From positions 1 through 47,325 of the forward strand of contig JAGBES010000008.1 in NCBI GenBank assembly GCA_017936845.1: 47,325 bases of DNA. The letters run 5' to 3'. Every line of letters starts with the position of its first letter. The first letter of the stretch is position 1. The notes under the pieces are model-generated. The model saw nothing but the letters and a program-made list of their open reading frames with translations, was not told the origin of the DNA and did no database searches. Of this stretch, positions 1,621-35,457 are shown piece by piece. This stretch comes from Bacilli bacterium. GTDB taxonomy: Bacteria > Bacillota_I > Bacilli_A > RF39 > UBA660. A program made the translations under genes and the position numbers.

Positions 1621-1655
1621 TTTTTACCTACTTTCTACTATAAAAATTATATATT

Positions 1656-1684
1656 AAAAAAACTAGTTTTTCAACTAGTTTTTA
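1656..1684 (-). terminator. Rho-independent terminator of the M23 peptidase gene
   Basis: On the minus strand a perfect 9-bp stem (AAACTAGTT, loop GAAA, AACTAGTTT) is followed by a T-run. It is 20-48 bases past the stop of the peptidase gene. The T-run leads directly into the -10 box (TATAAT, 1646-1651) of the prepilin gene starting at 1620. Confidence 0.8.
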
Positions 1685-1703
1685 TCAAATTATCATATTA
1701 TAA

Positions 1704-3227
1704 TCAATTATATAATGTCCATGGATTTAATCTTGTACCACCTCTATAAGGTGCTCCTCCATACCATGCTTCAAAATGTAAGTGAGGTCCTGTTGCACTA
1801 CCGGTCATTCCTACATATCCTATAATTTGTCCTCTTGTAACATTTGATCCTACTTTAACTCTATTATCAAATCTACTCATATGTGCATAAAGTGTATAAT
1901 ATCCATTATTATGATTTATTATAATATAATTTCCATAGGAATAATGTGATGTTCTTGTTATAATTGTACCATTATTTGTAGCATATATTGGACTACCATA
2001 TCCTGTACCTGAAATATCAATTCCTGTGTGTAAATTACGTCTTCTTGTAAATGGATCTATACGATATCCATAGTTAGACGAAATTGTATAACCACTATTT
2101 GTTGGCCATCCCCAACTTCGTGTTGAACCAACACCTGATACTTGCTTTTTACCATATACAATTATTTTTGAAGTTGCTGGTTTAAGTTCAGTTTTACTAA
2201 TTGGTTTAACATAAGTAATATTGCCATTAGTAATTTCAACTATTTGACTAATTCTCTCTAAACCATTTTCTCCTTTTTGAATTACTTCATCATCGCCAAC
2301 TTGTCTTGATGAATCATATCTTTCAATTGTTGTATATTTATTTACTTCATCTTTGACAACAGATTTTTCTATTACTACTTGTATTTGTGGATCTGTTATT
2401 CCAATTACTACTTTTTGTCCAGGAAATAATAAACTTTTTGAACTACTAAATGAAGGATTTGATATCAAAAATTCTTCTGTACTTATCTTATTTGCAAACG
2501 CTACTGTATCAATTGTATCTCCGCTTTTTACTGTATAGTCTGATTTTTTATTATTTTCACCAAATAATAAAAATTGTGCTAATTCATTTGAGTCATTATA
2601 TATTTTTTCTGTAACTGGTATATTAACTTTTTTTATTGTTATATTATCTTTTACATATACATTATTTATATATGTACCAGTTGTTACAATTTGTTGTTGT
2701 GTTTCTTCTTTATATGATTGATATTCATTTGTACCAACATAAGTTTTAAATAAACTCTCTACTGCTTCATCAAATATTTTACTTTCTGTTATATATAATT
2801 TAATTTTTGAAGTTTTTATTTCTTCTTTTTGTTCTTGTTTATTTTTTGTATCTGATGAACTATCAATTGTAAATTGATATCCACTTATTGTAAATGGTTT
2901 TTCATTTTGTATTTTTGCATATATACTTGCTACTGAACTTACTTCTGCATTATATGTTAAAACTTTTTGGGTAGATAGACCATTTGGTGAATATATTCTA
3001 TCTACTCCTAATTTATTTTTATACATTTCATTTTTACTATCAATATAATTATCTAATTCTTCTTTTGAATTTACCGTTCCTATTACTTTACCATCTAGGT
3101 ATACTTCATAATATACTTTAGGTTCAGTTGTTTTTCTATAACTAGATGTAAGTAAAATAGAAAGTATAATTATTGAGCAAAATACTAATATATATATTAA
3201 TGTTTCTTTAAACTTATCATTCTTCAT
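1704..3227 (-). CDS. cell-wall peptidase: membrane anchor, LysM, G5, M23 endopeptidase
   Basis: Numbering is from the upstream in-frame ATG at 3239. There is a TM anchor at about 13-31, an N-terminal extracellular region, LysM at about 234-280 (SDYTVKSGDTIDTVAF to PGQKVVIG), G5 at about 284-365 and M23 at about 385-511. Zinc ligands expected from the LytM family are present: His404 and Asp408 (HTGID) and His488 (HLH), plus catalytic-type His453 and His486. It should be a Zn-dependent endopeptidase cutting peptidoglycan cross-bridges, anchored to the membrane and binding glycan through LysM. I prefer the start at 3227 (fifth residue), because GGTGAT lies 4-5 bases before that ATG and the upstream ATG has no SD. 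It has its own promoter (TTGACT, 18 bp, TATAAT) and terminator, so it is probably monocistronic. Confidence 0.88.
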   Translation of the reverse strand: MKNDKFKETLIYILVFCSIIILSILLTSSYRKTTEPKVYYEVYLDGKVIGTVNSKEELDNYIDSKNEMYKNKLGVDRIYSPNGLSTQKVLTYNAEVSSVASIYAKIQNEKPFTISGYQFTIDSSSDTKNKQEQKEEIKTSKIKLYITESKIFDEAVESLFKTYVGTNEYQSYKEETQQQIVTTGTYINNVYVKDNITIKKVNIPVTEKIYNDSNELAQFLLFGENNKKSDYTVKSGDTIDTVAFANKISTEEFLISNPSFSSSKSLLFPGQKVVIGITDPQIQVVIEKSVVKDEVNKYTTIERYDSSRQVGDDEVIQKGENGLERISQIVEITNGNITYVKPISKTELKPATSKIIVYGKKQVSGVGSTRSWGWPTNSGYTISSNYGYRIDPFTRRRNLHTGIDISGTGYGSPIYATNNGTIITRTSHYSYGNYIIINHNNGYYTLYAHMSRFDNRVKVGSNVTRGQIIGYVGMTGSATGPHLHFEAWYGGAPYRGGTRLNPWTLYN

Positions 3228-3251
3228 TTTCATCACCATTTTAATATAAAA

Positions 3252-3281
3252 ATTATATCATATTAAAGTTATAATAGTCAA
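3252..3281 (-). promoter_or_regulatory. promoter of the M23 peptidase gene
   Basis: Minus-strand -35 TTGACT (3276-3281), an 18-bp spacer and -10 TATAAT (3252-3257). It sits between the terminator of the upstream gene and the peptidase start. Confidence 0.65.
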
Positions 3282-3286
3282 TTAAG

Positions 3287-3313
3287 AAAAAAGAACCTTT
3301 ACATTTCAGGTTC
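3287..3313 (-). terminator. Rho-independent terminator overlapping the stop of the beta-sandwich protein gene
   Basis: Minus strand: GAACCT, a loop containing the TAA stop codon, AGGTTC, then a T6 run. The stem is 6 bp. It ends the dockerin/beta-sandwich operon. Confidence 0.7.
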
Positions 3314-4714
3314 TCCTTTTTCTAATTTTTTCTTGTTTTTTTTATTTTGCTTTTTTGTATCTTTTTCTATCTTTTTTATTTCTTTTTTTGTTAATTCGTT
3401 ATCTATTTCATTAGTTTCTTTATTTTTAACTTTTCTTGTAAACCCAATTGTTACTAATAATATTAAAATTACTATTACTACACCTAGTATTAATATTAGT
3501 TTTTCATATTGGCTAATTTTTTCTTCTAATATTTTCTCTTCTTCTCTTTCATATATTTGAATTGTATTTTCATCACTATCATATCTATATATGTTTTCTT
3601 TTCCAGTTATTAAATTAATTCCATAAATTAAACTATATTTAGAATTTTTATTTAATTTATAAACTATAACATCTTGATCATTTATTTTTATTGAGTATTT
3701 TTTATAGTTAGAAGGTATTTTATTTTTTGGAAAATCAATAATATTAATCATTTTAGAATCAAAACTAAACGATTTAAACAATTTATATTCTGTTGGTTTT
3801 TCATTATCCTTAAACGAATCAAACTTATATAAATTTACATTTCCTTCTTTATCCTTTAAACCAACTAATACATAACTTATATTATCAATTCTATATGCTG
3901 GAACTTCTTGATCTTCAATATTTAATGTTAAATCTTCATGTTTTAATTCTAATTCTGGTAATTCATCTTTTTTCTTTATAAGAGTATATTCTTCATTTTG
4001 AATTTTTACAATTATTGGTTTTGAATCAACTGTTATTGTAATATTATATTTTTTTTCACTACCATTTTCAGCTTTAACAACAACTGAAAACTTATTTTCT
4101 CCTTCTTTAACTTCTTTTTCTCCATCATCTCCACTTAACGATGCTTTATCATCTTCTTTGTATGCTAAAATTTTAATCTTGTTAACATCATTCGGAACAG
4201 TTAAAGTATAATCTGTTTTATTTTTATCAAATTCTGGACTTAATTTATAACCTTCAATTTCTAATGATTTTAAATTGTTATTTGAAGATTTAGTTTCTTT
4301 TTTAGATGTTGAAGAATTATTTGATGTATTTGAAGATGTTGGTTTGCTTATGACATTTACACTTTTTGAACCTGATATATTAACTGTATTACCATTTTGA
4401 TCAGTTGTATTACCATTTAAATTAATTTTTATAGTACCCGTACCTGTCGTTTTACATTCTGCAGTATATGTTTTAGAACCATTCATTGCATTTTCTGTTG
4501 CATCTGCTTGATTTATAGAACATCCACTAACTGGACCACTAGCTGATACATGAATTTCCCACGAAGCAACACCACTTAATTTAACACCAACTTTAAATGT
4601 AGAACCATTATATACAGTTGATGAACTTGTATAAAGTGATGATGCAGCTTTTACTCCTGTATTAAAAAGGAATGTACTCACAAATATTAGTGTCAAATAT
4701 TTAATTTTTTTCAT
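3299..4714 (-). CDS. secreted membrane-anchored beta-sandwich surface protein (cadherin-like domain)
   Basis: A 471-residue protein. It has a signal peptide at about 1-23 (ending GVKAA). An Ig/cohesin-like beta domain at about 25-125 carries two Cys that could form a disulfide (GCSIN, AECKT). A Ser/Asn-rich linker follows, then a domain at about 150-230 (LKSLEIEGYKLSPEFDKN) matching the cadherin-like beta-sandwich family, and a further region of unknown fold. A C-terminal TM helix (LILILGVVIVILILLV) is followed by a very Lys-rich cytoplasmic tail. It lies 8 bp downstream of a dockerin-bearing glucosaminidase and is surely co-transcribed with it. The N-terminal domain might therefore be a receptor for that dockerin; this is inference, and I cannot establish a cohesin fold by eye. 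No enzymatic motif is visible. Confidence 0.7.
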   Translation of the reverse strand: MKKIKYLTLIFVSTFLFNTGVKAASSLYTSSSTVYNGSTFKVGVKLSGVASWEIHVSASGPVSGCSINQADATENAMNGSKTYTAECKTTGTGTIKINLNGNTTDQNGNTVNISGSKSVNVISKPTSSNTSNNSSTSKKETKSSNNNLKSLEIEGYKLSPEFDKNKTDYTLTVPNDVNKIKILAYKEDDKASLSGDDGEKEVKEGENKFSVVVKAENGSEKKYNITITVDSKPIIVKIQNEEYTLIKKKDELPELELKHEDLTLNIEDQEVPAYRIDNISYVLVGLKDKEGNVNLYKFDSFKDNEKPTEYKLFKSFSFDSKMINIIDFPKNKIPSNYKKYSIKINDQDVIVYKLNKNSKYSLIYGINLITGKENIYRYDSDENTIQIYEREEEKILEEKISQYEKLILILGVVIVILILLVTIGFTRKVKNKETNEIDNELTKKEIKKIEKDTKKQNKKNKKKLEKGEPEM

Positions 4715-4722
4715 ATTACCTC

Positions 4723-6255
4723 CTATTGATTTATTTTAGCTAATCCAATTAAATGTTGTCTCATTTTAAGTAAATCTGCTGAATTAACTATTGTATCATT
4801 TCTATTTAAATTAGCTGAAATTAAATATGCTCCTTTCAACTCATTTGTTGGAATTAAATGTTGTCTTATTTTAAGTAAATCTGCCGAATTAATAATCGAA
4901 TCACCATTTAAATCTCCATATATTACAGCTGTATATGTAAATTCTTTTTCATTATATTTTATTTTAATTATATCACCAGTAGCTATATTTTCTGTTTTAT
5001 TGTTATTGTTTTTTGTAATAGAAACTGTTGAATTTTTTAATTTATCGGTTATATTTTTTATAAAATCAGCTTGTAATGTTTTTTCTTGAATACCACTAAT
5101 ATAATTATCACTTATATTATATGTTATAAGTTTTTTAATATTATCTGATGTTGTATTATCATCAGTATTTGTTCCATCATTTAAATTTGGTGCATCTTTA
5201 TATATTGGAATATAAAAAACGTAATTATAATTTTTATATTCTTTAAAAGATGAATAAGATTTAAAAGTACTTTCTGATTCATAATATGGTGCTCTAATAT
5301 TTTGCATATATTGATGACCTCCAAATACTGGACCATATGGATCCCATTTTTGAAGATAATTTGTCATTTGTCCTTTAACATTATATGTATCATTAATTCC
5401 AATGTATTCTTTATATATAAATTTTGCTCCTCCTATTATTGAAGAATATGGGCTATTCCAATTATTTCCTTCACATAATTTTTGCCCTTTAGAGTTTGTT
5501 AATGTACCATTAGCACATTTCAAACCATTTGTAATTTTTATTTCATCTGTTGATCCACCAGCTTGTATATTAAAATAATTATAAAAATTTTCATATCCTT
5601 CATATTCGCCAGAAATTAAGGCACTTGTTCCTTTAGATCCTTGTTCCTGTTTTAAACGTGCTGCTAGCATATACGGACTAATATTATATTTTACTGCTGC
5701 TTCTAGTATGACTTCAGAATAAGTTTTATCTGAACCTTCACATTTAGTATTAGCCATAAATGTACCAGATAATATTTTTTCTACTCCTTCTTTTATATGA
5801 TAATCTTTATAATATTGAGATTCAAACATAAAAACATGTTTTTCATCCAAAAAGTTATAAGGATTCATATAATATTCAACAGCTTCTTTACTTGCAATAT
5901 ACCAAGTACATTTATTACCAGAAGTTTCCCCACAAATAGATGATTTATAATTATCTGGAGCACTTGCCTCTATCTCACTTCTTTTGTTTTTTAATTGTGC
6001 ATCAAGCATACTATTCCAATTAACTTCAACTTCTTTATATTTATTCCAATCAAAGAATTTATCTTGAGCAACAAATATGGCATTAGGATATGTATTATGT
6101 AATTTTTTTATTTTTTCTTGATATGCATATGGAAATTTAGTCAATTCTTCTTCATATGTTCCAACCATTGAATCATTATAAATAGCTTTTACATTTTTCA
6201 TAAAGCAAAAAGAGATAAGAAAAATGAATATAAATAATAACTTCTTTTTTTTCAT
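4723..6255 (-). CDS. secreted beta-N-acetylglucosaminidase with C-terminal dockerin
   Basis: A 510-residue protein. A signal peptide at about 1-24 ends NVKA. The middle part reads as a glucosaminidase domain (AVKYNISPYMLAARLKQEQG with the probable catalytic Glu, then NFYNYFNI and GAKFIYKEYI), which cleaves peptidoglycan glycan strands. The last 65 residues form a type I dockerin with two repeats. The first is a good calcium loop (DLNGDSIINSAD) followed by LLKIRQHL. The second (NLNRNDTIVNSAD, LLKMRQHL) has Asn in place of some Asp ligands. It is the first gene of a two-gene unit with the anchored protein 8 bp downstream. A promoter (TATACA, 17 bp, TATAAT) and the SD AAAGAGGTG precede it. A dockerin implies a cohesin partner; no clear cohesin is seen in the window. 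Confidence 0.85.
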   Translation of the reverse strand: MKKKKLLFIFIFLISFCFMKNVKAIYNDSMVGTYEEELTKFPYAYQEKIKKLHNTYPNAIFVAQDKFFDWNKYKEVEVNWNSMLDAQLKNKRSEIEASAPDNYKSSICGETSGNKCTWYIASKEAVEYYMNPYNFLDEKHVFMFESQYYKDYHIKEGVEKILSGTFMANTKCEGSDKTYSEVILEAAVKYNISPYMLAARLKQEQGSKGTSALISGEYEGYENFYNYFNIQAGGSTDEIKITNGLKCANGTLTNSKGQKLCEGNNWNSPYSSIIGGAKFIYKEYIGINDTYNVKGQMTNYLQKWDPYGPVFGGHQYMQNIRAPYYESESTFKSYSSFKEYKNYNYVFYIPIYKDAPNLNDGTNTDDNTTSDNIKKLITYNISDNYISGIQEKTLQADFIKNITDKLKNSTVSITKNNNNKTENIATGDIIKIKYNEKEFTYTAVIYGDLNGDSIINSADLLKIRQHLIPTNELKGAYLISANLNRNDTIVNSADLLKMRQHLIGLAKINQ

Positions 6256-6293
6256 TTTACTACACCTCTTTCTTAGTATTAATTCTTATATTA

Positions 6294-6322
6294 ATTATAA
6301 CAAATACTGATTTTATTGTATA
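6294..6322 (-). promoter_or_regulatory. promoter of the dockerin operon
   Basis: Minus-strand -35 TATACA (6317-6322), a 17-bp spacer and -10 TATAAT (6294-6299), 39 bases upstream of the glucosaminidase start. The -35 box is weak. Confidence 0.5.
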
Positions 6323-6358
6323 GCAATTATATTTAAATTTCAATTGATTTACACTATT

Positions 6359-6865
6359 TTACAGTTGGTATTTTTTAGCAATTACTATAAATCTTTTATT
6401 CCTATTATTAGTACATGTTATAAGAATTAATGTTTTGGTATTATAACTATCATTTAATATTTTATAATCATCTATTCTTATTTTTTTTGTTTCTTCCACT
6501 ATATATATTTCTTTTTCTTCTAAATATAATTCTATTAAGTCATTTTTTTTCATATAATGTATTTTTTTAAATACAGAATTTGTATTATGACCAGCTAATA
6601 TTATTAAATTAGGTTTATTTATATTCATTATTCCTACATAGTTTTGATCTAATATTTTATCTGATGTTCCTTTTTTTATTACTTTTTTTATATTATATTT
6701 TGGAATTTTAATATAACCTTTATATTCTTTATAAATATTATGATTATCATATATATTTGATATTATTTTATTTTGATAAATTGTATTAATATTATCTTTT
6801 TTATATTTAGATATTATAAGTATTATAGATAATATAATAAGTAAAAATCCTAATTTATTTTTCAT
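6359..6865 (-). CDS. sortase
   Basis: A 168-residue protein with an N-terminal TM helix (about 5-20) and a compact sortase domain. The triad is visible: His93 (LAGHN), Cys151 (LITCTNN) and Arg158 (NKRFI). The TLITCT context fits the accessory class B-D sortases rather than a housekeeping SrtA, but I cannot fix the class. It overlaps the 3' end of the adhesin gene by 11 bp, so translation is probably coupled. The adhesin ends in a YPKTS sorting signal. I infer a dedicated enzyme that attaches this one adhesin to the cell wall. It is short compared with typical sortases (about 200 residues), but the catalytic residues are all there. Confidence 0.88.
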   Translation of the reverse strand: MKNKLGFLLIILSIILIISKYKKDNINTIYQNKIISNIYDNHNIYKEYKGYIKIPKYNIKKVIKKGTSDKILDQNYVGIMNINKPNLIILAGHNTNSVFKKIHYMKKNDLIELYLEEKEIYIVEETKKIRIDDYKILNDSYNTKTLILITCTNNRNKRFIVIAKKYQL

Positions 6866-8894
6866 GTTTTAAACCAGATAAAATAAGCATTAATCCTATA
6901 AATACAAGATATATTATAATAGAATTTATAATTATATCTTTATTACTTGTTTTAGGATAAACTATTTCTTTATTAATAAGTTCTATTTCTTTTACTATAA
7001 AATCTTCATTTGAATTATTATTTAAGTCTATATCATATATATTGTCATCAATATAAAATTTATCTATTGTACTTATTTCTTTTATATAATATTTACCTAT
7101 AGGAAGTAAGTTTGATATAGCTATTCCTTGTTCTATATTTAATGTTTCTATTAATGTATCTTTTTTATATATTATTTTATTATCGTAATCTAATATATCT
7201 TCTTTAGCATATATATTAAATTTAACACCACTAAGTTTTATTAAACTATTATCTAATAATTTACCATATTTTATTATTTTAATTTTACCATATTGTTTTT
7301 TATTATATATATCTATTATTATTTCATCTGATGAATTTACTATAAATTCTTTATTTTCTCCCTTTATATAACCATTTGGTGGGGTTATTTCTTCTAATAA
7401 GTATCTTCCACCTTTTATAGCAAGAGTAATATATCCATTTTCAGTTTTAAATATTTTATCTAAATATTTATTTGTTTTCAAATCTTTTATTTTGAATGAT
7501 GCCTCTTTTAATATATTTTCTTTAGTATCTATATCTTTTTTATTAATTATTATTTTTGTTTTAATTATATCATCATATAAATTAATTATCTTATCTTCTG
7601 TACTATCTATTTCTATAAAAAAGTCTTTTATTTTTTTATATCCTAAAGTTGTATTTTTTTGAACTATTTTATATTTACCATATATAAGTTCTATATAAGC
7701 TTTTCCATTATTATCTGTTGTTATTTCATCTATTAATTTATTGTCTGAATTATATATTTCAAATGTTATATTTGCTTCTTTTTCTATTTTTTCATCGTCT
7801 TTTAAATATTTATTTATTATTAATTTTCCTTTTATTATTTCTTCTTTTAATTGTATTCTAACACTCTCATTATTTATATTAATATTATAAATTTTATCAT
7901 CTAATTTATATCCTATTGGGGCTTTTATCTCTTTTAAAGTATAATTTCCATATTTTAGTTTATCTATTTTAGCATTTCCTTCATTATCTATTTTTAAAGT
8001 ATCTATTAAGTTATTATTTTCATCATATAGATTGTAATTAGCTCCTACTACACTAGCACTTCCTCTTCTATTACTTTCTAGTGTTTCACTATCTACCTTT
8101 TTTATTTGTAAACTTCCTGAATATACTTCTACTTCTATTTCTTTTTCAATCTTTTCTATGTATCCTCTTATTAATATAGCTTGTCCTTTTTTAGCAGTAT
8201 AAGGAATATTAATATGTGAATGATTTCCATCTTTTTTAGTTAATTTTATTTTATATTTTCCTTCTTTAGTTGGATTAATTTTTAACTTATTATCTTCTAT
8301 TTTACTATTTAATGTTTCATCTGCTTCTATATTAAATTCATTTAACATTTCATTATATATTTCATAGTTATCATTAATTGATATTTTTATATTATCTATA
8401 TTTGGTAATTTATTATAATTTTCTATTAATTTTTCTATTTCTTGTTCTTCTAATGTAAACCTTTCTATTTTTTCTCCTTTAAATTTATTTGTATAAAATA
8501 TACTTGCTTCTTTATCCATTTCTTTCCATATCATCATTTGGGTTATTGCATACCATTTTATATCAGTATGATCTTTATAATTATATCCAAAATATGCGAT
8601 TTGTGAGACTCTTTTATATTTTTCATATGATATATTAAGATATTTATCAATATTATAAAATCTTGCTGTATATAATTCATCTTCATATAATGTATCTGAT
8701 GGTGTTAAGCAATAAACTGGTAAATTATCTCCTTCTCTTCTTATAAATCGCATTAACTGTGATTTTGTGAAATCATCTTTCTTATATGTTGCATATACTC
8801 CTGTTACATAATTATCTTCATAAAAGTATTCTGCTTTTACTTCTGTTGTTATAAATAAAACTGTAAATATAATAAATATTAAAATTTTTTTCAT
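6855..8894 (-). CDS. sortase-anchored thioester adhesin with SpaA-type repeats
   Basis: A 679-residue protein from the chosen start. A signal peptide ends TEVKA. Next comes a TQXA/thioester domain with the reactive pair Cys62 (VYCLTPSD) and Gln119 (AITQMMIW), known in such domains to form an internal thioester that bonds covalently to host molecules. Four SpaA/Cna-B-like beta domains follow (starting near GSLQIKK, GKLIINK, TKIIINK and GKIKIIK), which usually carry isopeptide bonds. The C-terminus has a sorting signal YPKTS, a hydrophobic helix and a basic tail (GLKHEK). An in-frame ATG exists at 8909, but an ideal AGGAGG overlaps its codons 2-3 and sits 6 bases before the ATG at 8894, so I start there. 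The sortase gene overlaps its end. Confidence 0.88.
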   Translation of the reverse strand: MKKILIFIIFTVLFITTEVKAEYFYEDNYVTGVYATYKKDDFTKSQLMRFIRREGDNLPVYCLTPSDTLYEDELYTARFYNIDKYLNISYEKYKRVSQIAYFGYNYKDHTDIKWYAITQMMIWKEMDKEASIFYTNKFKGEKIERFTLEEQEIEKLIENYNKLPNIDNIKISINDNYEIYNEMLNEFNIEADETLNSKIEDNKLKINPTKEGKYKIKLTKKDGNHSHINIPYTAKKGQAILIRGYIEKIEKEIEVEVYSGSLQIKKVDSETLESNRRGSASVVGANYNLYDENNNLIDTLKIDNEGNAKIDKLKYGNYTLKEIKAPIGYKLDDKIYNININNESVRIQLKEEIIKGKLIINKYLKDDEKIEKEANITFEIYNSDNKLIDEITTDNNGKAYIELIYGKYKIVQKNTTLGYKKIKDFFIEIDSTEDKIINLYDDIIKTKIIINKKDIDTKENILKEASFKIKDLKTNKYLDKIFKTENGYITLAIKGGRYLLEEITPPNGYIKGENKEFIVNSSDEIIIDIYNKKQYGKIKIIKYGKLLDNSLIKLSGVKFNIYAKEDILDYDNKIIYKKDTLIETLNIEQGIAISNLLPIGKYYIKEISTIDKFYIDDNIYDIDLNNNSNEDFIVKEIELINKEIVYPKTSNKDIIINSIIIYLVFIGLMLILSGLKHEK

Positions 8895-8970
8895 TTTTTT
8901 CCTCCTCATTTATAGATAATATTAGATTTTTATGAAAAGTTCAAATGAAGGTTTTTATATTTTTTTTAAC

Positions 8971-12982: not shown

Positions 12983-14950
12983 CTATTTTCTTTTAATTTT
13001 TATAGTTGCTTTTTCTTCTAAACAATTATTTTCTAATTCACTAAATGACAAAGTTTTTTCATCTATTCCAGTATTTATTAATGTACTTAAGCTTCTTTTA
13101 CCACTTGGATCTAGCGGAAAAGACTCTTCATTGTTTCTTATTCTAAAGTATAATCTGTTTTTTATTTCATGATTAAATGAATTGTTTATTCTCGATATAA
13201 TTCCCTTAAGTATTTGTTTTTCTGACTTTTGTTTATATGGTTGCAATTCAATATGACAAACTAAATTGTCATCTAAAGTATTAACAACTGAACAACTCAT
13301 TACATTTTTAGTATCAAGAAGAATACTATCTTCTATTAAATAGTATGGAACATTTTCCCCATTAGATAATTTAATATAGTTTCCCATTCTACCTTTCATT
13401 TTAATTCTACCAGTTCTATCTTTATATGAATATGTCCCCAAATTTAACCATTCACGACCAATAGAATCAACAATATGTGTTTGCTTATTTAATTCAGAAT
13501 CAGTATATCCTATCATTTCACATGGATTAATTGCCACTAAAAGTCCTGGCTCATTAACTTTACAATAATCTCCATCTTCATTTAATACTTCTATTTCAGA
13601 AAATTTATGAGGTGTTAATCCTAATGTTTCCTTCCTGATTAAATAATTTAATTTTTTTTCTTGAAGAGATTTAAATAATGTAACAAATATACCACTACTT
13701 TCAGTAGTACCACCACCTATTGAAAATGTCACTGGTGAAAGTGGAAATGGTAATTTATCTACACCAAATTTATGCTTTCTACTTGTAAAATTCAAAAATT
13801 TTTCTTCACCAATTGATAAACCTTCACCTGTAACAGTAGGTAGCATCAAATAAGGCATATCAACATTCTTCCAAAATTCATCGAAATTTAATAATTTACA
13901 TAAGTTACACCAAAATCCTGTGCTTGCAGGTACAAAATTTGGCTTATTAATAACTAATGAATATGGAAAAAAATCCTTATTATAAAATGGTTCTAACGCA
14001 AGTGTACAACCACAATAAAGCGTATCTGATATAGCACATGACAATTCCATATGAGTATACGTAGGAATATGTGCAAGAACTGACATATTTTTCATTGTAG
14101 GCATACCCGACACATCCGATTCTTTAAATCTGGATAAAGTTATATAACTTCTATTTGATTGGATAACTCCTTTAGGATATCCTGGTAATGTTGTTCCACT
14201 TGTATATGTAATAGAAAATGCATCATTTAAATCTACATTTTCAACAACTTTTCCACTATAGTCAAATCCTAATGATTCAAATTCATTTATATTATATGTT
14301 GTTCCTTTATGTTTTCTTTTTACTTTATTTACATTATTACTTATATCATGATAATTTGAATCTATCTGTTGATAAGGATTAGTCTTAATATTATCTTGAT
14401 TTATTATAAAAGAATCAGTTAATGAAAAGCATACTAAGTCTTTTATATTACTGTTATCAATAGAATCTTTAATTTTTTCGTATGAAATATCATCAATAAA
14501 CATTACATTACTTTTTGTTTCGTTTAATATTTTAATTAAATAATCTTTATTAAACCAATCACCCACTATATTTGCTTTAGCACCAATAAAACTTACAGCT
14601 AAAAGTAAATATACAAATTCAGGAGTATTAGTAATACAAATAGGTATTTCATTTTCTTTTGAAAATCCAAGTTTTTTTAATGATTTTGCATACATATACG
14701 CACGTTCAAACATATCTTTATATTTAATTTTTTTTCCGCGATAATATAAGGCTATACTGTTCATATTTTCTCGATTTCTATCATACATTTCAATTGCCCA
14801 TGAGTGATTATGATTATTATCTATATCATTCAACACATTTTGTACTTTTTTTACTATTTTATCACTATATATATATGGTTTTTCACATTTTTTTTCATTT
14901 TGTTTTTCCAAACTTATTTCTTCTAGTAACAGCTCAAAATTATTTTCCAT
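12983..14950 (-). CDS. AMP-forming acyl-CoA synthetase/ligase family protein
   Basis: A 655-residue member of the adenylate-forming (ANL) superfamily. Motif A1 is TYTSGTTLPGYPKGV, with three extra residues compared with the usual TSGTTGxPKG. GGGTTESSG resembles the A5 region. A hinge region reads NLGTYSYKDRTGRIKMKGR, followed by IKLSNGENV, and a C-terminal DPSGKRSL supplies the usual catalytic Lys. The family activates a carboxylate with ATP and usually passes it to CoA or a carrier; the substrate cannot be read. It has its own promoter and terminator, so no partner gene helps. The atypical P-loop and the insertion at about 195-225 make it a divergent member. Confidence 0.75.
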   Translation of the reverse strand: MENNFELLLEEISLEKQNEKKCEKPYIYSDKIVKKVQNVLNDIDNNHNHSWAIEMYDRNRENMNSIALYYRGKKIKYKDMFERAYMYAKSLKKLGFSKENEIPICITNTPEFVYLLLAVSFIGAKANIVGDWFNKDYLIKILNETKSNVMFIDDISYEKIKDSIDNSNIKDLVCFSLTDSFIINQDNIKTNPYQQIDSNYHDISNNVNKVKRKHKGTTYNINEFESLGFDYSGKVVENVDLNDAFSITYTSGTTLPGYPKGVIQSNRSYITLSRFKESDVSGMPTMKNMSVLAHIPTYTHMELSCAISDTLYCGCTLALEPFYNKDFFPYSLVINKPNFVPASTGFWCNLCKLLNFDEFWKNVDMPYLMLPTVTGEGLSIGEEKFLNFTSRKHKFGVDKLPFPLSPVTFSIGGGTTESSGIFVTLFKSLQEKKLNYLIRKETLGLTPHKFSEIEVLNEDGDYCKVNEPGLLVAINPCEMIGYTDSELNKQTHIVDSIGREWLNLGTYSYKDRTGRIKMKGRMGNYIKLSNGENVPYYLIEDSILLDTKNVMSCSVVNTLDDNLVCHIELQPYKQKSEKQILKGIISRINNSFNHEIKNRLYFRIRNNEESFPLDPSGKRSLSTLINTGIDEKTLSFSELENNCLEEKATIKIKRK

Positions 14951-20160: not shown

Positions 20161-21102
20161 TTAATTTTTTATTTCTCTATTACATTTACTACCAAATGCA
20201 TCTATTAGTTTTTCATCTTTATAAATTTTCAAAATTTCACAGTTATTTGGACATTTATTACATTCCATTCCTTTTGTTTCAAATTTAATATCTTTAATAT
20301 TTAGATCATATATTTTATTATTTTTATTTTTTGCTAATATGGCGATTCCTATAGCACCCATTAAATGACTATTTGAGTCTACTATTATATCTTCTTTTAA
20401 TATTTCTTTAAAATATTTTACAACTCCAATATTTTTACTTACTCCACCTTGAAAAACTATAGGTGGTTTTATTTTTTTACCTTTTCCTACATTGTTTAAA
20501 TAATTTAATACTATACTTTTTGATAATCCTGCTACTATATCTTCTATTTTATATCCAAGTTGTGCTTTGTGAACTAAATCTGATTCTGCAAATACAGTAC
20601 AACGAGCTGCTATTTTAACAGGATTATTTGATTTAAGTGCTAATTTACCAAAGTCTTCTATTTTTATTTTTAATCTTTTTGCTTGACTTGATAAAAAAGC
20701 ACCTGTCCCGGCTGCACATAAAGTATTCATTGCATAATCAGTTATTATTCCATTATTTATTAATATTATTTTTGAATCTTGCCCTCCTATTTCTAATATT
20801 GTTTTACATTCTGGATAAAAGTTAAGTGTTCCAACTGCATGAGCTGTTATTTCATTTTTTATAACATTTGCATCTAATAATAAACCAATTAATTTTCTAG
20901 CACTTCCTGTTGTTCCAATACCTTTTATTACTATATTTTTATCTAAATTATTCTTTAAATTTTCTATTAATTTTTTGACTGCTTTTATAGGATTTGCTTC
21001 TGTCCAAATATATTCTGATTTTATAATGTTATTATTCTCATCTATTATTACACCTTTTGTTGAAATTGATCCTATATCAATGCCTAGATAACAATTTTTC
21101 AT
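20161..21102 (-). CDS. 2-hydroxyacyl-CoA dehydratase activase (ASKHA ATPase)
   Basis: A 313-residue protein with GIDIGSISTKGVIID, the phosphate-binding start of the ASKHA fold, and ILEIGGQDSKII. Two cysteines (TLCAAGTGAFL, IAARCTVFAESD) bridge the [4Fe-4S] cluster between subunits in this family. The C-terminus adds a Cys-rich tail (MECNKCPNNCEI, SKCNREI). The family couples ATP hydrolysis to low-potential electron transfer into a dehydratase or double-cubane protein. It overlaps the next upstream gene by 26 bp, the third gene of an operon whose first two encode the acceptor protein. The physiological substrate is unknown. Confidence 0.88.
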   Translation of the reverse strand: MKNCYLGIDIGSISTKGVIIDENNNIIKSEYIWTEANPIKAVKKLIENLKNNLDKNIVIKGIGTTGSARKLIGLLLDANVIKNEITAHAVGTLNFYPECKTILEIGGQDSKIILINNGIITDYAMNTLCAAGTGAFLSSQAKRLKIKIEDFGKLALKSNNPVKIAARCTVFAESDLVHKAQLGYKIEDIVAGLSKSIVLNYLNNVGKGKKIKPPIVFQGGVSKNIGVVKYFKEILKEDIIVDSNSHLMGAIGIAILAKNKNNKIYDLNIKDIKFETKGMECNKCPNNCEILKIYKDEKLIDAFGSKCNREIKN

Positions 21103-22156
21103 TCTTTTTCCTCATTTCTATCATATCATAAAATGCTTCTAATCGCGTTTTGATTCCTACTTCACTCGTATTAGCATCAAAGGAAAAAAATATTACTGGA
21201 ATATCATATTCTTTACATATTTTATTTATTATAGCCATTGATCCTATTTCTGGTGTACAAAATGATGATTTTATATGAATTATTCCATCATATTTTTTTT
21301 TACATAAATATTTACATCTACCTATATTGTCGTGACTATCTGCCCCCATCTTATATTTAATATATTTTTTAGCACTTTTTAAATATTTTAAACCTTTTTT
21401 TCTCTTTTCTATTAATAGATAATGAGCATTTGTAAATCTTTTTATTTCGATATTATAACTTGCTAATTCTCGTTCTAAATAATAATTAGCAAATGGTTCC
21501 ATAACTGTATATAATTCTCCTATAATACCTATTTTTAAACAATTTTTAGGTTTATTTATTTTTACTTTTTTTAACTTTTTATAATATTTTTTATATGTTC
21601 TTCTTAAATCTAGATAACCTTTAACATTTAAAAATTTATTTAACATTTCTTTATTTATATTTTCTAATTCTTTTTTTTCTTCAAATCCTATATTTTGTCT
21701 TATATAGTCGTCACACCTATCCATATATTTAAGCATTTTAAATGTTATAAATGAATAATATATTAGTTTATCTACTTTTAATTTAGGATTTATTTCTTTT
21801 AACTTTAGATATATTTCTTTTAAGTTTGTTACTCCTTTTGTTACAAAATTAACATATTTAAATTCATATCCTAAATCTTTTAATATTTGTTCTTGTAATT
21901 CAAAATAATATCCATATCTACAGCCTCCACCAAATTGTACTACTATATTAGCTCCTTTTTCTAGGGCTTCTATATATGTACCTAATGTATATTTAAATGG
22001 TGTACATACAAATTCTGGACTATTAGCATTTCCAAGTTCAATGGTTTTTTTTGTTATTGGTGGTGGTTCTACTATTTCACATTCTAAAATATGTTTAAAT
22101 AAGTATATTATTGGCGTTCTATAGTTTCCAACTAACGGGAATGTTATTTTATTCAT
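21077..22156 (-). CDS. 2-hydroxyacyl-CoA dehydratase / double-cubane-cluster-type protein, half A
   Basis: A 359-residue protein. Conserved cysteines in typical contexts (EFVCTPFKYTLGTYIEAL, FGGGCRYGYYFELQE, GRCKYLCKKK, SSFCTPEIGSM) and the core ELYTVMEPFANYYLERELA assign it to the 2-hydroxyglutaryl-CoA dehydratase D-component superfamily. The long split form linked to DUF2229 is known to include proteins with an [8Fe-9S] double-cubane cluster. It overlaps both neighbours (8 bp and 26 bp), indicating coupled translation and a complex with them. What it reduces or dehydrates cannot be read; no acyl-CoA pathway genes are nearby. Confidence 0.8.
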   Translation of the reverse strand: MNKITFPLVGNYRTPIIYLFKHILECEIVEPPPITKKTIELGNANSPEFVCTPFKYTLGTYIEALEKGANIVVQFGGGCRYGYYFELQEQILKDLGYEFKYVNFVTKGVTNLKEIYLKLKEINPKLKVDKLIYYSFITFKMLKYMDRCDDYIRQNIGFEEKKELENINKEMLNKFLNVKGYLDLRRTYKKYYKKLKKVKINKPKNCLKIGIIGELYTVMEPFANYYLERELASYNIEIKRFTNAHYLLIEKRKKGLKYLKSAKKYIKYKMGADSHDNIGRCKYLCKKKYDGIIHIKSSFCTPEIGSMAIINKICKEYDIPVIFFSFDANTSEVGIKTRLEAFYDMIEMRKKNEKLLSRH

Positions 22157-23060
22157 TTATAACTCCTCCTTTTATAATGTCTATAAAACTTTCTATTCTT
22201 GTTTCTATACCTGTCATACTATTTAAATCATCTATTATTAAATTTAAATATGGTTTTTTTAACTTTCTAAACATTAATTCGTTTACTAATGAATCTGGGC
22301 TACATGGAAATGTTGAAATAAAAATTATACCGTCTATTTTATCTTCTACTAATGGTATAGAACCTATATTTTCTTTATTATATTTAAAATATAAACTATA
22401 TGATAATTTTTTGCTTAATGTATTTGTTATATCTTTATGAAATAAGTCAGAATATATTATTTCTGTATCATTTAATTCTATATATTTAATTATTTCTTTT
22501 CCTATTAAATTATCATATAAATTATATGGATGACCTATTAATAATATTTTAGTTTTTTCACTATCTAACTTTTTTATATTATCTTTTATTAATTTGTCAT
22601 TTTTTTGTTTTACTTTTTTTATTGCATTTTTATATGCCTTTTTAGCATATTCTTTTGAATAACCAAAATCAGTTACTATTTTTATTAATCCTTTTTCTTC
22701 AGTTTCATTATTTTCAAGATTAATATTATAATTTAATATCTTAGTATCAAATATATTATTAATAATGTCATAGGTTGCTAAAAAATTTGTACATGTTTGA
22801 TTATCATTACCATAATTTGATATTCTAGGAATTAATATATAGTCACATTTATCTAATAAATAATAGACATGTCCAATATAATTTTTCATTGAAACACACA
22901 TTTCATCAATAGAAAATTTAATACCATTTTCCATTATTGTTTTGTTTGTAGGTGGACTTATAATTAATTCAATATTAAATTCATCAAAAAAATATTTCCA
23001 GATATCTTTATAGTAATAATAGAATAAACTTCTTGGAATTCCTATTTTTATTTTTGCCAT
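22149..23060 (-). CDS. 2-hydroxyacyl-CoA dehydratase-related protein, half B (DUF2229 type)
   Basis: A 303-residue protein starting MAKIKIGIPRSLFYYYYKD, typical of DUF2229/activase-related proteins. Cysteines occur in DEMCVSMKNYIGHVYYL, NDNQTCTNF and FPCSPDSLVNEL. It resembles the partner protein downstream in overall plan (a Cys near residue 55, then about 90, then about 250), consistent with a heterodimer of related halves holding an iron-sulfur cluster. It is the first gene of the three-gene operon; SD GGTGATT before the ATG. Confidence 0.8.
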   Translation of the reverse strand: MAKIKIGIPRSLFYYYYKDIWKYFFDEFNIELIISPPTNKTIMENGIKFSIDEMCVSMKNYIGHVYYLLDKCDYILIPRISNYGNDNQTCTNFLATYDIINNIFDTKILNYNINLENNETEEKGLIKIVTDFGYSKEYAKKAYKNAIKKVKQKNDKLIKDNIKKLDSEKTKILLIGHPYNLYDNLIGKEIIKYIELNDTEIIYSDLFHKDITNTLSKKLSYSLYFKYNKENIGSIPLVEDKIDGIIFISTFPCSPDSLVNELMFRKLKKPYLNLIIDDLNSMTGIETRIESFIDIIKGGVINE

Positions 23061-23167
23061 ATAATAATCACCTATATAATTGTATGAATAGTTTAAAAAT
23101 TTATGTTAAATTTAAATTTAATGATAATTTAAAAGATATTTAATATATATAGTATTTTTATAAATAT

Positions 23168-23199
23168 TAAAAAAACCTCATTTTATTAAATGGGGTTTA
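23168..23199 (-). terminator. Rho-independent terminator of the coiled-coil pair
   Basis: Minus strand: AAACCCCATTT, loop, AAATGAGGTTT with one G-T pair, then a T-run. It overlaps the stop of the gene at 23197. Confidence 0.75.
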
Positions 23200-23997
23200 T
23201 TCTTTATTATTAAATTTATCAATATTAACTGTAAAATCGCTTACTAATTCATTAAATTTTAGCAAATTATTAGATAATTCATTTTTATCTGAATCATATT
23301 TTATTCTATCTAATTCTAATTTTCTTTTAGCATTGTCAAGTTCTTCTTTTAATGCTTCTAATTTATTTTTATATTTATCTAGTTCGTCTCTTTCTTGTTG
23401 ACATTCTTCTTTTTGTTGCTTTTTAATTTGCTTTATACGTTCAATTTCATTTCTTTTATATTCTTCAAAACGTTCTTTTTCTGTATTTAATTTATTTTGA
23501 ACATTTTTAAATTCTTCTATTTTTGTCTCTATTTCAGCTTTTTTTTCATTTACTTTAGCATAAACTTCATCTTTATACTTTCTTATTTTTTCATAATCTT
23601 CGCTTTTTTTAATTTCAAATTCATTTTGTCTTTCTTCAAGTTCTTTAAATTTATTATCAAGTTCTTTTTTCATTTCTATATTTTGATTATAAATATTTTT
23701 TGCTTGAAGAACATTATTATTAGCAGCTTCAAAAATACTGTTAATATCATTTGTGATATTTTTTTCAACTGGTTCTTGTTCTTCTTCCATATCATCAAAA
23801 TTAAATTCACTATCAATATCTATCTCACTAACTTCAACAGGTTCAGTTATATTTTCATCGTCAGTTATATTTGCTTCATCTAATTTTTGTTCATTCAAGT
23901 TTTCAATTTCTTCTTGTTCTTCTGTTAAACTTAATTGTGGTTCTTCAGTTTCATTCATTAATTCTATATCATTATCTTTTTTTATTTTTTTACTCAT
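23197..23997 (-). CDS. acidic coiled-coil protein B
   Basis: A 266-residue protein of unknown function. Residues 1-75 are very acidic and low in complexity; 80-250 form a long coiled coil rich in Lys and Glu. The end (LLKFNELVSDFTVNIDKF) matches the end of its upstream neighbour (ARFKELVSQFNSGFQQL). The start overlaps the last base of that gene, so the two are a coupled pair and probably old duplicates. No signal peptide or TM segment is seen. It could be a cytoskeletal or scaffold protein, but nothing proves it. Confidence 0.6.
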   Translation of the reverse strand: MSKKIKKDNDIELMNETEEPQLSLTEEQEEIENLNEQKLDEANITDDENITEPVEVSEIDIDSEFNFDDMEEEQEPVEKNITNDINSIFEAANNNVLQAKNIYNQNIEMKKELDNKFKELEERQNEFEIKKSEDYEKIRKYKDEVYAKVNEKKAEIETKIEEFKNVQNKLNTEKERFEEYKRNEIERIKQIKKQQKEECQQERDELDKYKNKLEALKEELDNAKRKLELDRIKYDSDKNELSNNLLKFNELVSDFTVNIDKFNNKE

Positions 23998-25244
23998 TAC
24001 TTATCCTCAGGTAATTGTTGGAAACCTGAATTAAACTGAGATACTAACTCTTTAAATCTTGCACAACTTTGAGATAAATTTTTACTTTCTAATTCTAATT
24101 TTTTCTCTTCTAGTTCTTTTGTTTTAGCAAATTGTTCTTTTTGAACTTGTAAATCTTTTTGAGCATTTTTTATTTTTTCTAATTCTATTGCTTTTTCTTT
24201 TTCAAATTGTTCTTTTTCTGTTTCAAATTTTTGTTTTTCTGATGTTAATTTTTGTTCTTCTATTTCTTTATATTTTTCAAATTGTTGTTTTTCATCTTCT
24301 AATTTTTGTTCTTCTATTTTTAATGATTCTTCTGCTAATTTTCTTTCAGCTCTTGCTGCTTCCATATCATTATTAAATTGTTCTTCTTCATTTTGAAGAC
24401 GAATTTTTTGTGTTTTAATATATTCATTGCATTGTTTCTTTTCTGATTCTATGCTTTCTTTTTGAGCTTCTACATACTTAGCAAATTCTTCTTTTTCTTT
24501 TTCTAATTTAGTAGCTTGTTCATTTAATGTTGCTTCATTTATATTTACATTTTTCTTTTGTTCTATTAAATTTGAAATAAAATTATTAGCTCCATTTACA
24601 TCATTATATAAGCTATCAAATAAGACATCAAAGTTTGATAATACGTAACTATCATCTAATGATTCTTTTTTATTGTCTTCTTCTATCATTCTATCCATTT
24701 CTTCATTTGTTAAACTTGAAACTACAAATTTTTCATCCTTTACTGATTCTTTTGGTTCATTTTCTATTTCTTCTAATTCTTCTTCAACTGATTCTTTTGG
24801 TTCTTCTTTTTCATTTTCTAATTCTTTCTCTTGTTCTAAATCTTCATTTTCTTCTATTGGTTCATTTTCATTAGATTCTTCATCTGGTTGTTCAGATTCA
24901 ACTATTTCTTCTTTTTCTTCTACTGGAGAAAAATTAAATACATTTGAATCATTATTCATTGAAACTTCTGTTGGAACACCATCTTGAATATTATCAAAAT
25001 CTAATTTTGCTACTGGTTGCTCATCTTTTGAAAAATCATCTAAGCTAACTGGTTGAACTGGAATTGGTGGTTCTACTTCTTCATCATCATAAAAATCAGC
25101 ATTTGAAGAATTCATTTGCATTGGTTGTTCTATAATTTCATCATCATAAAACTCATTTGAATCATTTACTTTTTCTGCAATATCAGTTGCGCTATCAACA
25201 AAAATATTATTATTGTAATCTGTTTGGTTTGTGTTTTCTACCAT
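23997..25244 (-). CDS. acidic coiled-coil protein A
   Basis: A 415-residue protein. The N-terminal 200 residues are acidic and disordered-looking, with a repeated motif FYDDEIIEQP / FYDDEEVEPP near residues 32-57 and several EEP and KESV repeats. Residues 215-395 are a long coiled coil with near-heptad repeats such as LEDEKQQFEKYKE and LTSEKQKFETEKE. The C-terminus (SCARFKELVSQFNSGF) is shared with the next gene. SD AAGGAGATG. No family name can be given. Composition (no Cys but one, no TM) suggests an intracellular filament or scaffold; this is inference. Confidence 0.6.
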   Translation of the reverse strand: MVENTNQTDYNNNIFVDSATDIAEKVNDSNEFYDDEIIEQPMQMNSSNADFYDDEEVEPPIPVQPVSLDDFSKDEQPVAKLDFDNIQDGVPTEVSMNNDSNVFNFSPVEEKEEIVESEQPDEESNENEPIEENEDLEQEKELENEKEEPKESVEEELEEIENEPKESVKDEKFVVSSLTNEEMDRMIEEDNKKESLDDSYVLSNFDVLFDSLYNDVNGANNFISNLIEQKKNVNINEATLNEQATKLEKEKEEFAKYVEAQKESIESEKKQCNEYIKTQKIRLQNEEEQFNNDMEAARAERKLAEESLKIEEQKLEDEKQQFEKYKEIEEQKLTSEKQKFETEKEQFEKEKAIELEKIKNAQKDLQVQKEQFAKTKELEEKKLELESKNLSQSCARFKELVSQFNSGFQQLPEDK

Positions 25245-34666: not shown

Positions 34667-35440
34667 TTAATTCAATATATTATATATTTTTACTCCTATA
34701 CTTTGTAATATAGGAGAACGATATATAAATTTTTTATCTGTTTCTATAGCCTTTATAATTTGCTTTACTATACTATTAAGTTTTTTCTTTTCTAGAAAAA
34801 ACATCATTATATTTTCTTTTTTTCTAATAAGTTCTAATTCTTCTTTAAATAATAAATCAAAGTTAGTATTATATTTGTTATCAAACATTACTTTGTTAAA
34901 ACCTGTTTTATACATTCCTGGTTCTATTAAACAAATTTTAATATTACTATTTAGTATTTTTAATTCTTTTTTTAAACATTCACTTAATTTTATAATACTT
35001 GCTTTTGTAGAACAATATGATCCTAAAAATGGTATTGGTATAATTCCAGCCATTGATGACATAATAATTATTTTTCCTTATTTTTTTTCTAACATATTTT
35101 TTAAAATTATCTGTATTAATTCAAAGTTAGAAAAAACATTTACTTCAAAATTATTTCTAATATTATTCATATTCATATTAATTATACTACCACCTATTCC
35201 GATAGCAGAATTAGCTACAAATATATCTATATCTAAATCTTTTATTTTTTGTTTATCTACTTTAGATGTTACATCTAATTTAAAACATTTTATATTTTTT
35301 TCATTTTTATATTTTTCTTTTATATTTTCTAATTCTATTACTGTATGTGTTGTTACATATATAAAATATTTATTCTTTATCTTTTTTATTAGCTCTTTCA
35401 TTATACCTGAAGTTGCTCCTGTTATTAATATTTTTTTCAA
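34667..35440 (-). pseudogene. short-chain dehydrogenase split by an in-frame stop codon
   Basis: The first half (KKILITGATSGIMKELIKK, VANSAIGIGG) holds the Rossmann nucleotide site and NSA motif and ends LEKK-stop (TAA, 35078-35080). The very next codons, in the same frame, continue GKIIIMSSMAGIIPIPFLGS with the catalytic Ser and YCSTKAS (Tyr-x-x-x-Lys), and run to LQSIGVKIYNILN. So one TAA, not a frameshift, interrupts a full-length SDR of about 255 residues. An internal ATG (35062) could restart only the second half. For the 5' start I favour a TTG at 35440, since the GTG at 35449 is part of a GGTGAT SD. It follows fhs by 8 bp. Recent decay, sequencing error or suppression are possible. Confidence 0.75.
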
Positions 35441-35457
35441 AAAAATCACCAGTATTA

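Follow-up and report, generated by a model that had tools for sequence, protein, structure and literature searches.

The stretch of DNA examined here, referred to throughout as the window, comprises 47,325 nt of a Bacilli bacterium of the RF39 lineage (contig JAGBES010000008.1 of assembly GCA_017936845.1). An earlier reading made from the letters alone, the sequence-only reading, had placed three overlapping genes near its middle, and open reading frames (ORFs) were recovered on the minus strand at the same coordinates. These genes, termed here HA, HB, and ACT, form an operon that is found mainly in anaerobic spore formers and is the subject of this analysis. HA (22149..23060, 303 aa) encodes a DUF2229 subunit (PF09989, E 1.6e-42). 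HB (21077..22156, 359 aa) encodes a second subunit of BCR/HAD type, with PF06050 (HGD-D, E 5.2e-11) at its C-terminus. ACT (20161..21102, 313 aa) encodes an ASKHA-type ATPase or reductive activase (PF01869, BcrAD_BadFG, E 1.1e-47), for which both TIGR00241 and PF01869 exceeded their cut-offs. HA overlaps HB by 8 nt (22149..22156), and HB overlaps ACT by 26 nt (21077..21102).

AlphaFold2 models of HA (pLDDT 90.8, pTM 0.88) and HB (pLDDT 91.2, pTM 0.89) were compared with the PDB. The ten best entries for HA were all DCCP, 2-hydroxyisocaproyl-CoA dehydratase, or benzoyl-CoA reductases (Z 11.7-15.4), and the first unrelated row appeared at Z 9.3. They included DCCP 7yzm_A (Z 15.4, 3.8 Å over 261 residues), 3o3n_B (Z 14.9, 3.7 Å over 264 residues), and BzdN 8s02_B (Z 14.7, 3.8 Å over 267 residues). 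The ten best entries for HB were those of HA or their sisters (Z 12.0-16.7, unrelated from 9.9), among them 3o3m_D (Z 16.7, 4.0 Å over 295 residues), 7yzm_A (Z 16.5), and 8s02_B (Z 16.1). Since these structural alignments cover nearly the whole model of each protein, HA and HB are not the half-proteins that they had been taken for; each is predicted to be a complete BCR/HAD-type subunit. Profile searches against PDB sequences matched the C-terminal part of DCCP and HadC only, and in these matches HA C253 and HB C300 align with cysteines.

Examination of the alignments revealed exactly three invariant cysteines in HA (C55, C90, and C253 in 84/84 proteins, alignment A5) and exactly three in HB (C51, C79, and C300 in 83/83, alignment A6). 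An extra cysteine beside C79 occurs in 46 of the 83 HBs and is absent from that of the window. In the models, the invariant residues lie at or just before the N-terminal ends of helices (56-67, 91-94, and 254-266 in HA; 52-66, 84-94, and 301-316 in HB). According to PMC11971306, the [8Fe-9S] double cubane of BzdN has six ligands (Cys36/73/100/263/293/327), and the cluster is lined by the N-terminal ends of helices 74-85, 103-113, and 327-343, with Cys73, Cys100, and Cys327 among the ligands; the [4Fe-4S] cluster of BzdO has three (Cys95/128/380). The placement of the HA and HB cysteines at helix N-ends resembles that of Cys73/100/327 in BzdN as described there. Because each subunit has three invariant cysteines, compared to six ligands in BzdN and three in BzdO, both HA and HB would fit, by conservation and helix position, the case of a [4Fe-4S] cluster bound by three cysteines and having an open site. 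Convergence of the three residues in either subunit is suggested by the helix positions within its own model and by the fold matches.

The sequence-only reading had proposed that the two proteins carry an [8Fe-9S] cluster and reduce small substrates. DCCP and BzdN are indeed among the best fold matches, but a double cubane in HA or HB was rejected on the count of invariant cysteines, and the NCBIfam model NF040772 (double_cubane) gave 18.4 bits on HB against a cut-off of 350 and no match on HA. We therefore regard a double-cubane reductase as highly improbable. DCCP with its activase DCCP-R resembles the present system in subunit fold, with the Z scores given above, and in having a dedicated activase, but DCCP is a homodimer with a six-Cys double-cubane site, whereas HA and HB are two different subunits without that site. 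Class I benzoyl-CoA reductases (BzdNOPQ, MbdONPQ) are alike in pairing two different catalytic subunits with an ATP-driven activase and in the three-Cys cluster reported for BzdO, and unlike in the six cysteines and [8Fe-9S] cluster of BzdN (PMC11971306). Taken with the activase, the models and alignments make it very probable that HA-HB-ACT belongs to the ATP-driven enzymes of BCR/HAD type and that HA and HB each have one three-Cys cluster site.

Six cysteines are invariant in all 68 ACT proteins aligned (C129, C168, C281, C284, C288, and C307; alignment A7). The first two lie in the activase core and are presumably, as in HgdC, the cysteine pair of a bridging [4Fe-4S] cluster. The other four make up a Cys4 tail (20182..20262, minus strand; C281-x2-C284-x3-C288-x18-C307), and their invariance in 68/68 activases bears out, as a cysteine motif, the earlier hint of an extra cluster in the Cys-rich tail. 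ACT aligns to solved activases up to residue ~261, with the tail lying beyond; the alignments of the HgdC and HadI chains to ACT end before it.

The 2-hydroxyacyl-CoA dehydratases (HadBC/HadI, HgdABC) share with HA-HB-ACT both subunit folds, the activase homology, and three-Cys cluster sites, but no CoA-transferase or dehydratase pathway genes were recognized around HA-HB-ACT. Pfam was run on all 43 window ORFs of at least 100 aa, minus those merely antisense to a longer one; the operon itself aside, none was recognizable as a gene for a dehydratase, a CoA-transferase, or amino-acid fermentation. Near the operon lie genes for topoisomerase I, an rRNA methylase of SpoU type, and a sigma factor, along with several whose products have no Pfam match. 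The window's genome, an assembly of 34 contigs and 1.12 Mb that is 88% complete, yielded no second match to PF01869, PF09989, or PF06050 and no standard dehydratase elsewhere. The earlier statement that no acyl-CoA or amino-acid fermentation gene lies nearby is accordingly correct for fermentation genes within the 43 ORFs but does not strictly hold for acyl-CoA genes, since a 655-aa AMP-binding protein resembling acyl-CoA ligases is encoded at 12983-14950, 5.2 kb from the operon (best NCBIfam score 110.5 bits, cut-off 476). This neighbor, together with the common superfamily and activase type, would be consistent with a 2-hydroxyacyl-CoA dehydratase or other acyl-CoA enzyme of fermentation. 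Such an enzyme is nonetheless very unlikely: topoisomerase I and other unrelated genes stand between the ligase-like gene and the operon, all NCBIfam equivalog models for dehydratases and benzoyl-CoA reductases scored far below cut-off, no CoA-transferase was recognized among the 43 ORFs, and the genome gave no further activase or HGD-D match.

The modules of HA-HB-ACT recur in the plasmalogen synthase PlsA, the discovery paper of which is said to be that of Jackson et al. in 2021. Hidden Markov models of the split proteins, when run on longer relatives, gave the order ACT-ACT-HA (969-988 aa) followed by HB (406-430 aa) or, in single-frame relatives of about 1,400-1,430 aa, ACT-ACT-HA-HB. This architecture agrees with the layout Act1, Act2, Red1, Red2 given for PlsA in PMC12838417 (also PMC9702350, PMC13274423, and PMC8788747); the first of these describes plsA and plsR as an operon in C. 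perfringens, and PlsA as the product of a single gene in Enterococcus and Lactococcus. All core cysteines and the Cys4 tail were present in ten out of ten PlsA-type proteins aligned with 12-13 split ones, the ten being recognized by architecture, without an authentic C. perfringens sequence in the comparison, and all coming from genomes of the window's class. The Cys4 tail is also found in the second activase domain of plasmalogen-synthase-type proteins. A quick tree of 111 HAs, rooted on the PlsA-type rows and confined to rows of 280-425 aa, with authentic PlsA not among them, divided 102 split from nine PlsA-type HAs by a branch with support of 100.

The alignments and tree suggest that HA-HB-ACT is an unfused sister of the PlsA/PlsR type on a separate branch. 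PlsA/PlsR and the PlsA-like glycerol ester reductase Ger share its activase, DUF2229, and HGD-type modules, and the PlsA-type proteins defined by architecture share the 3+3 cysteines, the activase cysteine pair, and the Cys4 tail. In the PlsA/PlsR type, two activases are fused to the DUF2229 subunit, whereas the split system has one activase in a separate gene and three genes in all; the split system also differs in the branch its HAs occupy and in its association with sporulation genes, described below. Two PlsA-type loci (L055 and L058) from one genus (g16) of the window's order were observed to have a common downstream block (clusters c32, c33, c62, c63, and c64), possibly a functional neighborhood of the fused form.

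Matches to HA were found in 47 of the 97 genomes of the window's order. It stands alone in 38 genomes and lies inside a frame of 1,250-1,450 aa in eight, with one genome (G051) having both kinds; G012 has a fragment of 44 residues, counted here as split, and G052 a partial match in a 544-aa frame, counted as neither. HB followed HA in all 33 loci of this order (the window and 32 others), and ACT was adjacent in 30 of them, L070, L071, and L072 having HA-HB without it. HA-HB-ACT loci recur in Clostridia too. Because of this recurrence, and that of HA-HB in 33/33 loci, the three-gene arrangement is not due to chance. From named genomes, the analysis retained the best 80 loci of 569 relatives, starting from a Haloplasmataceae HA as the first query. 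To judge by genome titles, their carriers are nearly all Bacillota, for the most part Clostridia, together with relatives of Haloplasma and a small number of metagenome-assembled genomes (MAGs) from other phyla. A search for DUF2229 in control genomes returned no match in Bacillus subtilis. Inspection by eye of representative neighbor clusters in the window's order showed no apparent shared pathway.

Several variants of the operon were seen. In L156, HA is followed by a 784-aa protein with ACT as its best domain, which appears to be HB fused to ACT and would then speak for physical contact between the two. L180, L209, and L211 have the order HA-HB-ACT-HB with a second HB copy, and L177 has HB-ACT-HA-HB. 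HA-HB pairs with no adjacent activase occur, besides the three loci named above, in L205, L207, L221, L222, L182, L184, L185, and L186; sharing of an activase, or another partner, is possible for these. In L036 (10268-13178), from a genome (G006) without a match to SpoVAD, HB is in two frames and ACT is short, and this copy is possibly decaying or mis-assembled.

The sequence-only reading had described the operon as an orphan, which is apt for the window itself; in many other genomes, however, the same operon lies beside or inside a spoVA locus. The fetched flanks of 16 of the 80 named loci contained spoVA genes, often with spoIIAA, spoIIAB, sigF, or lysA. These loci include those of Halonatronum, Orenia, Syntrophomonas and relatives, Moorella, Peptococcaceae, Heliobacteriaceae, and Acetivibrio alkalicellulosi. 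Ten of the 15 complete HAs in them directly follow spoVAF, spoVAEb, or spoVAEa on the same strand, at gaps of -53 to +123 nt, and the remainder are separated by an intervening ORF or have spoVA elsewhere in the flank. In Orenia, the order is spoIIAA, spoIIAB, sigF, spoVAA, spoVAB, spoVAC, spoVAD, spoVAEb, spoVAEa, spoVAF, HA, HB, ACT, with 23 nt between spoVAF and HA. Pfam was applied to the neighbor genes of this locus and of the window. In Orenia, the check, which covered all positions except spoVAB, returned sporulation-specific families for spoVAA, spoVAC, spoVAD, spoVAEb, and spoVAEa. The gene in the place of spoVAF matched GerA, and for spoIIAA, spoIIAB, and sigF the families were no more than general ones (STAS, histidine-kinase-like ATPase, sigma-70). 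We estimate that an 18-kb locus in a genome of 3 Mb would lie close to spoVA by chance with a probability of less than 1%. In a quick tree the linked loci were scattered over separate branches of the split HAs, which suggests an old linkage to spoVA with repeated loss.

The presence of SpoVAD was then compared with that of the operon. Of 50 carriers chosen out of the 80 named ones, 46 had a strong SpoVAD match. A larger test used 245 Clostridia genomes of the class of Alkaliphilus, in which a split carrier was defined by a best match of E <1e-55 outside a long frame; the partial copies in G673 and G533 were counted as split, and G682, with its match in a 1342-aa frame, was not. Matches weaker than 1e-10 for SpoVAD (G548 and G612) or 1e-7 for DpaA (nine genomes) were counted as absent. 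SpoVAD was present in 74 of the 79 carriers versus 104 of the 166 non-carriers (odds ratio 8.8, p 8e-8, Fisher), and SpoVAD or DpaA in 76/79 versus 108/166. Among the genomes with SpoVAD, 52/74 carriers and 78/104 non-carriers had DpaA (p 0.50), and a role for the operon as a substitute for dipicolinate synthase was rejected for this lack of relation. Throughout the window's order SpoVAD is frequent (83/97 genomes), with 4/8 genomes of the fused form having it compared to 79/89 others.

These counts also bear on the idea that HA-HB-ACT is an ordinary vegetative plasmalogen or ether-lipid synthase laid out in three genes, the spoVA proximity and spore-former bias reflecting only the shared ancestry of anaerobic Bacillota. 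Such a synthase would account for the parts in common with PlsA/PlsR and for the position of the window's genes next to topoisomerase I and other housekeeping genes. In the window's order, moreover, 39 genomes have the split form and eight the fused form, with only one genome having both, which weakly suggests replacement; as mutual exclusion this was not significant (p 0.14) and was not retained. We nevertheless consider a vegetative synthase unlikely. The Clostridia genomes with only other matches, mostly of PlsA type (all 110 remaining matching genomes, taken without a frame check of each), had SpoVAD in 63 cases, compared to 41 of the 56 with no match at all, so the PlsA type has no positive link to SpoVAD. 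Loci linked to spoVA turn up repeatedly in the HA tree, on branches apart from one another, and the two systems often coexist in Clostridia: at least 26 of the 79 split carriers have an additional PlsA-type frame of >900 aa, and hence the two are not simple substitutes.

Sequences upstream of HA were also examined. The window has CATACAAT at 23079..23086 on the minus strand, 26 nt before the HA start, which matches the sigma-E -10 consensus; it is a weak promoter candidate. A sigma-E-like pattern was found before 7 of 84 HAs versus 11 of 542 controls (p 0.006), with several patterns tried. The 8-mer GTCAATAA was strongly enriched before HA (11/84 versus 0/542 controls), and a GTCAATAATA element precedes HA in diverse Clostridia (for example L118, L120, L137, L142, L143, L159, and L217). 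In three genomes GTCAATAATAT was no commoner than its own reversed control, and three of the four gene-preceding sites of the element in these genomes stood before HA itself. GTCAATAA was therefore dropped as part of a sigma-F/G promoter and looks specific to the operon; GTCAATAATA is possibly the site of a specific regulator or a promoter element. The upstream regions of SASP genes were unusable as a promoter control, 10 of 30 loci being unanchored and others mis-anchored.

Computed here were the domain content, fold, and cysteine sets, the features in common with PlsA-type proteins, the association with SpoVAD, and, in some lineages, the linkage to spoVA. On this basis, our preferred but tentative reading is that HA-HB-ACT is a sporulation-associated, ATP-driven radical iron-sulfur reductase of the BCR/HAD superfamily, a sister of PlsA/PlsR that probably acts on a membrane-lipid ester. 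We consider it likely that the operon serves sporulation in many of its carriers. For the window's own copy that role is less sure, because its neighborhood is not related to sporulation. That the substrate is a membrane-lipid ester, by homology, seems plausible, at somewhat less than even chances.

The steps that we infer, from the clusters themselves and the electron path to the lipid substrate and the developmental timing, would run as follows. Reduced ferredoxin or flavodoxin would supply electrons; ferredoxin as donor is assumed from HgdC biochemistry. The electrons would pass, perhaps via a cluster in the Cys4 tail, to the activase dimer and its [4Fe-4S] cluster, where hydrolysis of ATP would lower the potential. 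Single electrons would then move to the [4Fe-4S] clusters bound by three cysteines in HB and three in HA. At the open iron site of one of these, the carbonyl of the substrate would be reduced by way of a ketyl-type radical, and water might be lost. The most likely substrate would be a membrane lipid with an ester linkage, which during sporulation would be turned into a vinyl- or alkyl-ether form. A bolder version, which we think improbable as a whole, is that anaerobic endospore formers possess a dedicated oxygen-sensitive radical reductase, driven by ATP and anciently tied to spoVA, that remodels phospholipids of the forespore or spore inner membrane to vinyl- or alkyl-ethers, a step absent from Bacillus subtilis and kept in 1-Mb genomes.

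The enzyme might alternatively be a sporulation-associated reductase of the same chemistry whose substrate is not a lipid but a small molecule or cofactor of the developing spore, the likeness to PlsA being one of ancestry only. The branching of split HAs apart from PlsA-type proteins, the presence of both systems in at least 26/79 carriers, so that they are not simply redundant, and the spoVA linkage would all suit a non-lipid substrate. Every invariant cysteine site, the unusual tail included, is common to PlsA-type proteins, however, and the DpaA counts do not indicate a dipicolinate-synthase substitute. We judge this possibility rather unlikely.

A number of results weigh against our preferred reading of a sporulation-associated lipid reductase. 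No spoVA gene was found in the fetched stretches of the 32 split loci of the window's order or of 19 further clostridial loci, and in some linked loci spoVA is not in line with HA (in L119 it is on the other strand). Carriers in the window's order were not enriched for SpoVAD (35/39 versus 48/58, p 0.39), and the Fisher co-occurrence tests ignore phylogeny. Four of the 50 named carriers tested had no convincing SpoVAD (G505 a weak match; G511, G512, and G515 none); these are MAGs of other or unstated phyla. A sporulation promoter before HA, sought by counts of sigma patterns, gave weak results, and none was demonstrated. The lipid role is drawn entirely from homology, and the split HAs lie on their own branch apart from PlsA-type HA.

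Among the top open-licence PMC matches listed, no paper joined DUF2229, COG3580/3581, or the names of these enzymes with sporulation. By term look-up, the main text of the sporulation papers PMC3533761, PMC4433262, and PMC3738446 does not mention activase or dehydratase, and the passages seen of the C. beijerinckii papers PMC6362236 and PMC7884928 have nothing on HA-HB-ACT genes. PMC9686372 concerns a non-spore-forming actinobacterial lineage. According to a 2026 paper (PMC13274423), Bacillota genomes carry extra PlsA homologs without an activation domain, of unclear role; the split operon may explain them, with the activase as a separate gene and sporulation as the context. HA-HB-ACT may be an unrecognized spore enzyme. 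If so, a radical enzyme linked to spores exists in anaerobic spore formers and, within our limited literature searches, has not yet been discussed in the sporulation field, and the operon provides a concrete candidate that can be tested by knock-out.

The window's genome contains spoVAC-spoVAD-spoVAEb (contig C7:17714-18676, locus L203) and two alpha/beta-type SASP genes (contig C33:2740-2904 and 5727-5888, loci L237 and L252). This 1.1-Mb genome is therefore a candidate endospore former, and it seems that a very small genome keeps endospore genes. Spore formation has been predicted for RF39 in PMC10868615, which also reports sortases as missing from RFN20 and ML615J-28 and not from RF39.

Elsewhere in the window, two neighboring acidic, coiled-coil-looking proteins (266 and 415 aa; 23197-25244) with no Pfam match are encoded directly upstream of HA. 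Surface-structure genes occupy 397-8909, encoding a protein with a pilin-type methylation motif (397-1620), an M23/LysM/G5 peptidase (1704-3239), a sortase (6359-6865), and a SpaA/thioester-domain surface protein (6855-8909). Two adjacent ORFs at 34667-35449 correspond to the front and back of one short-chain dehydrogenase (PF00106 profile positions 1-126 and 134-191), and since the profile is divided over both, this gene looks broken or mis-assembled.

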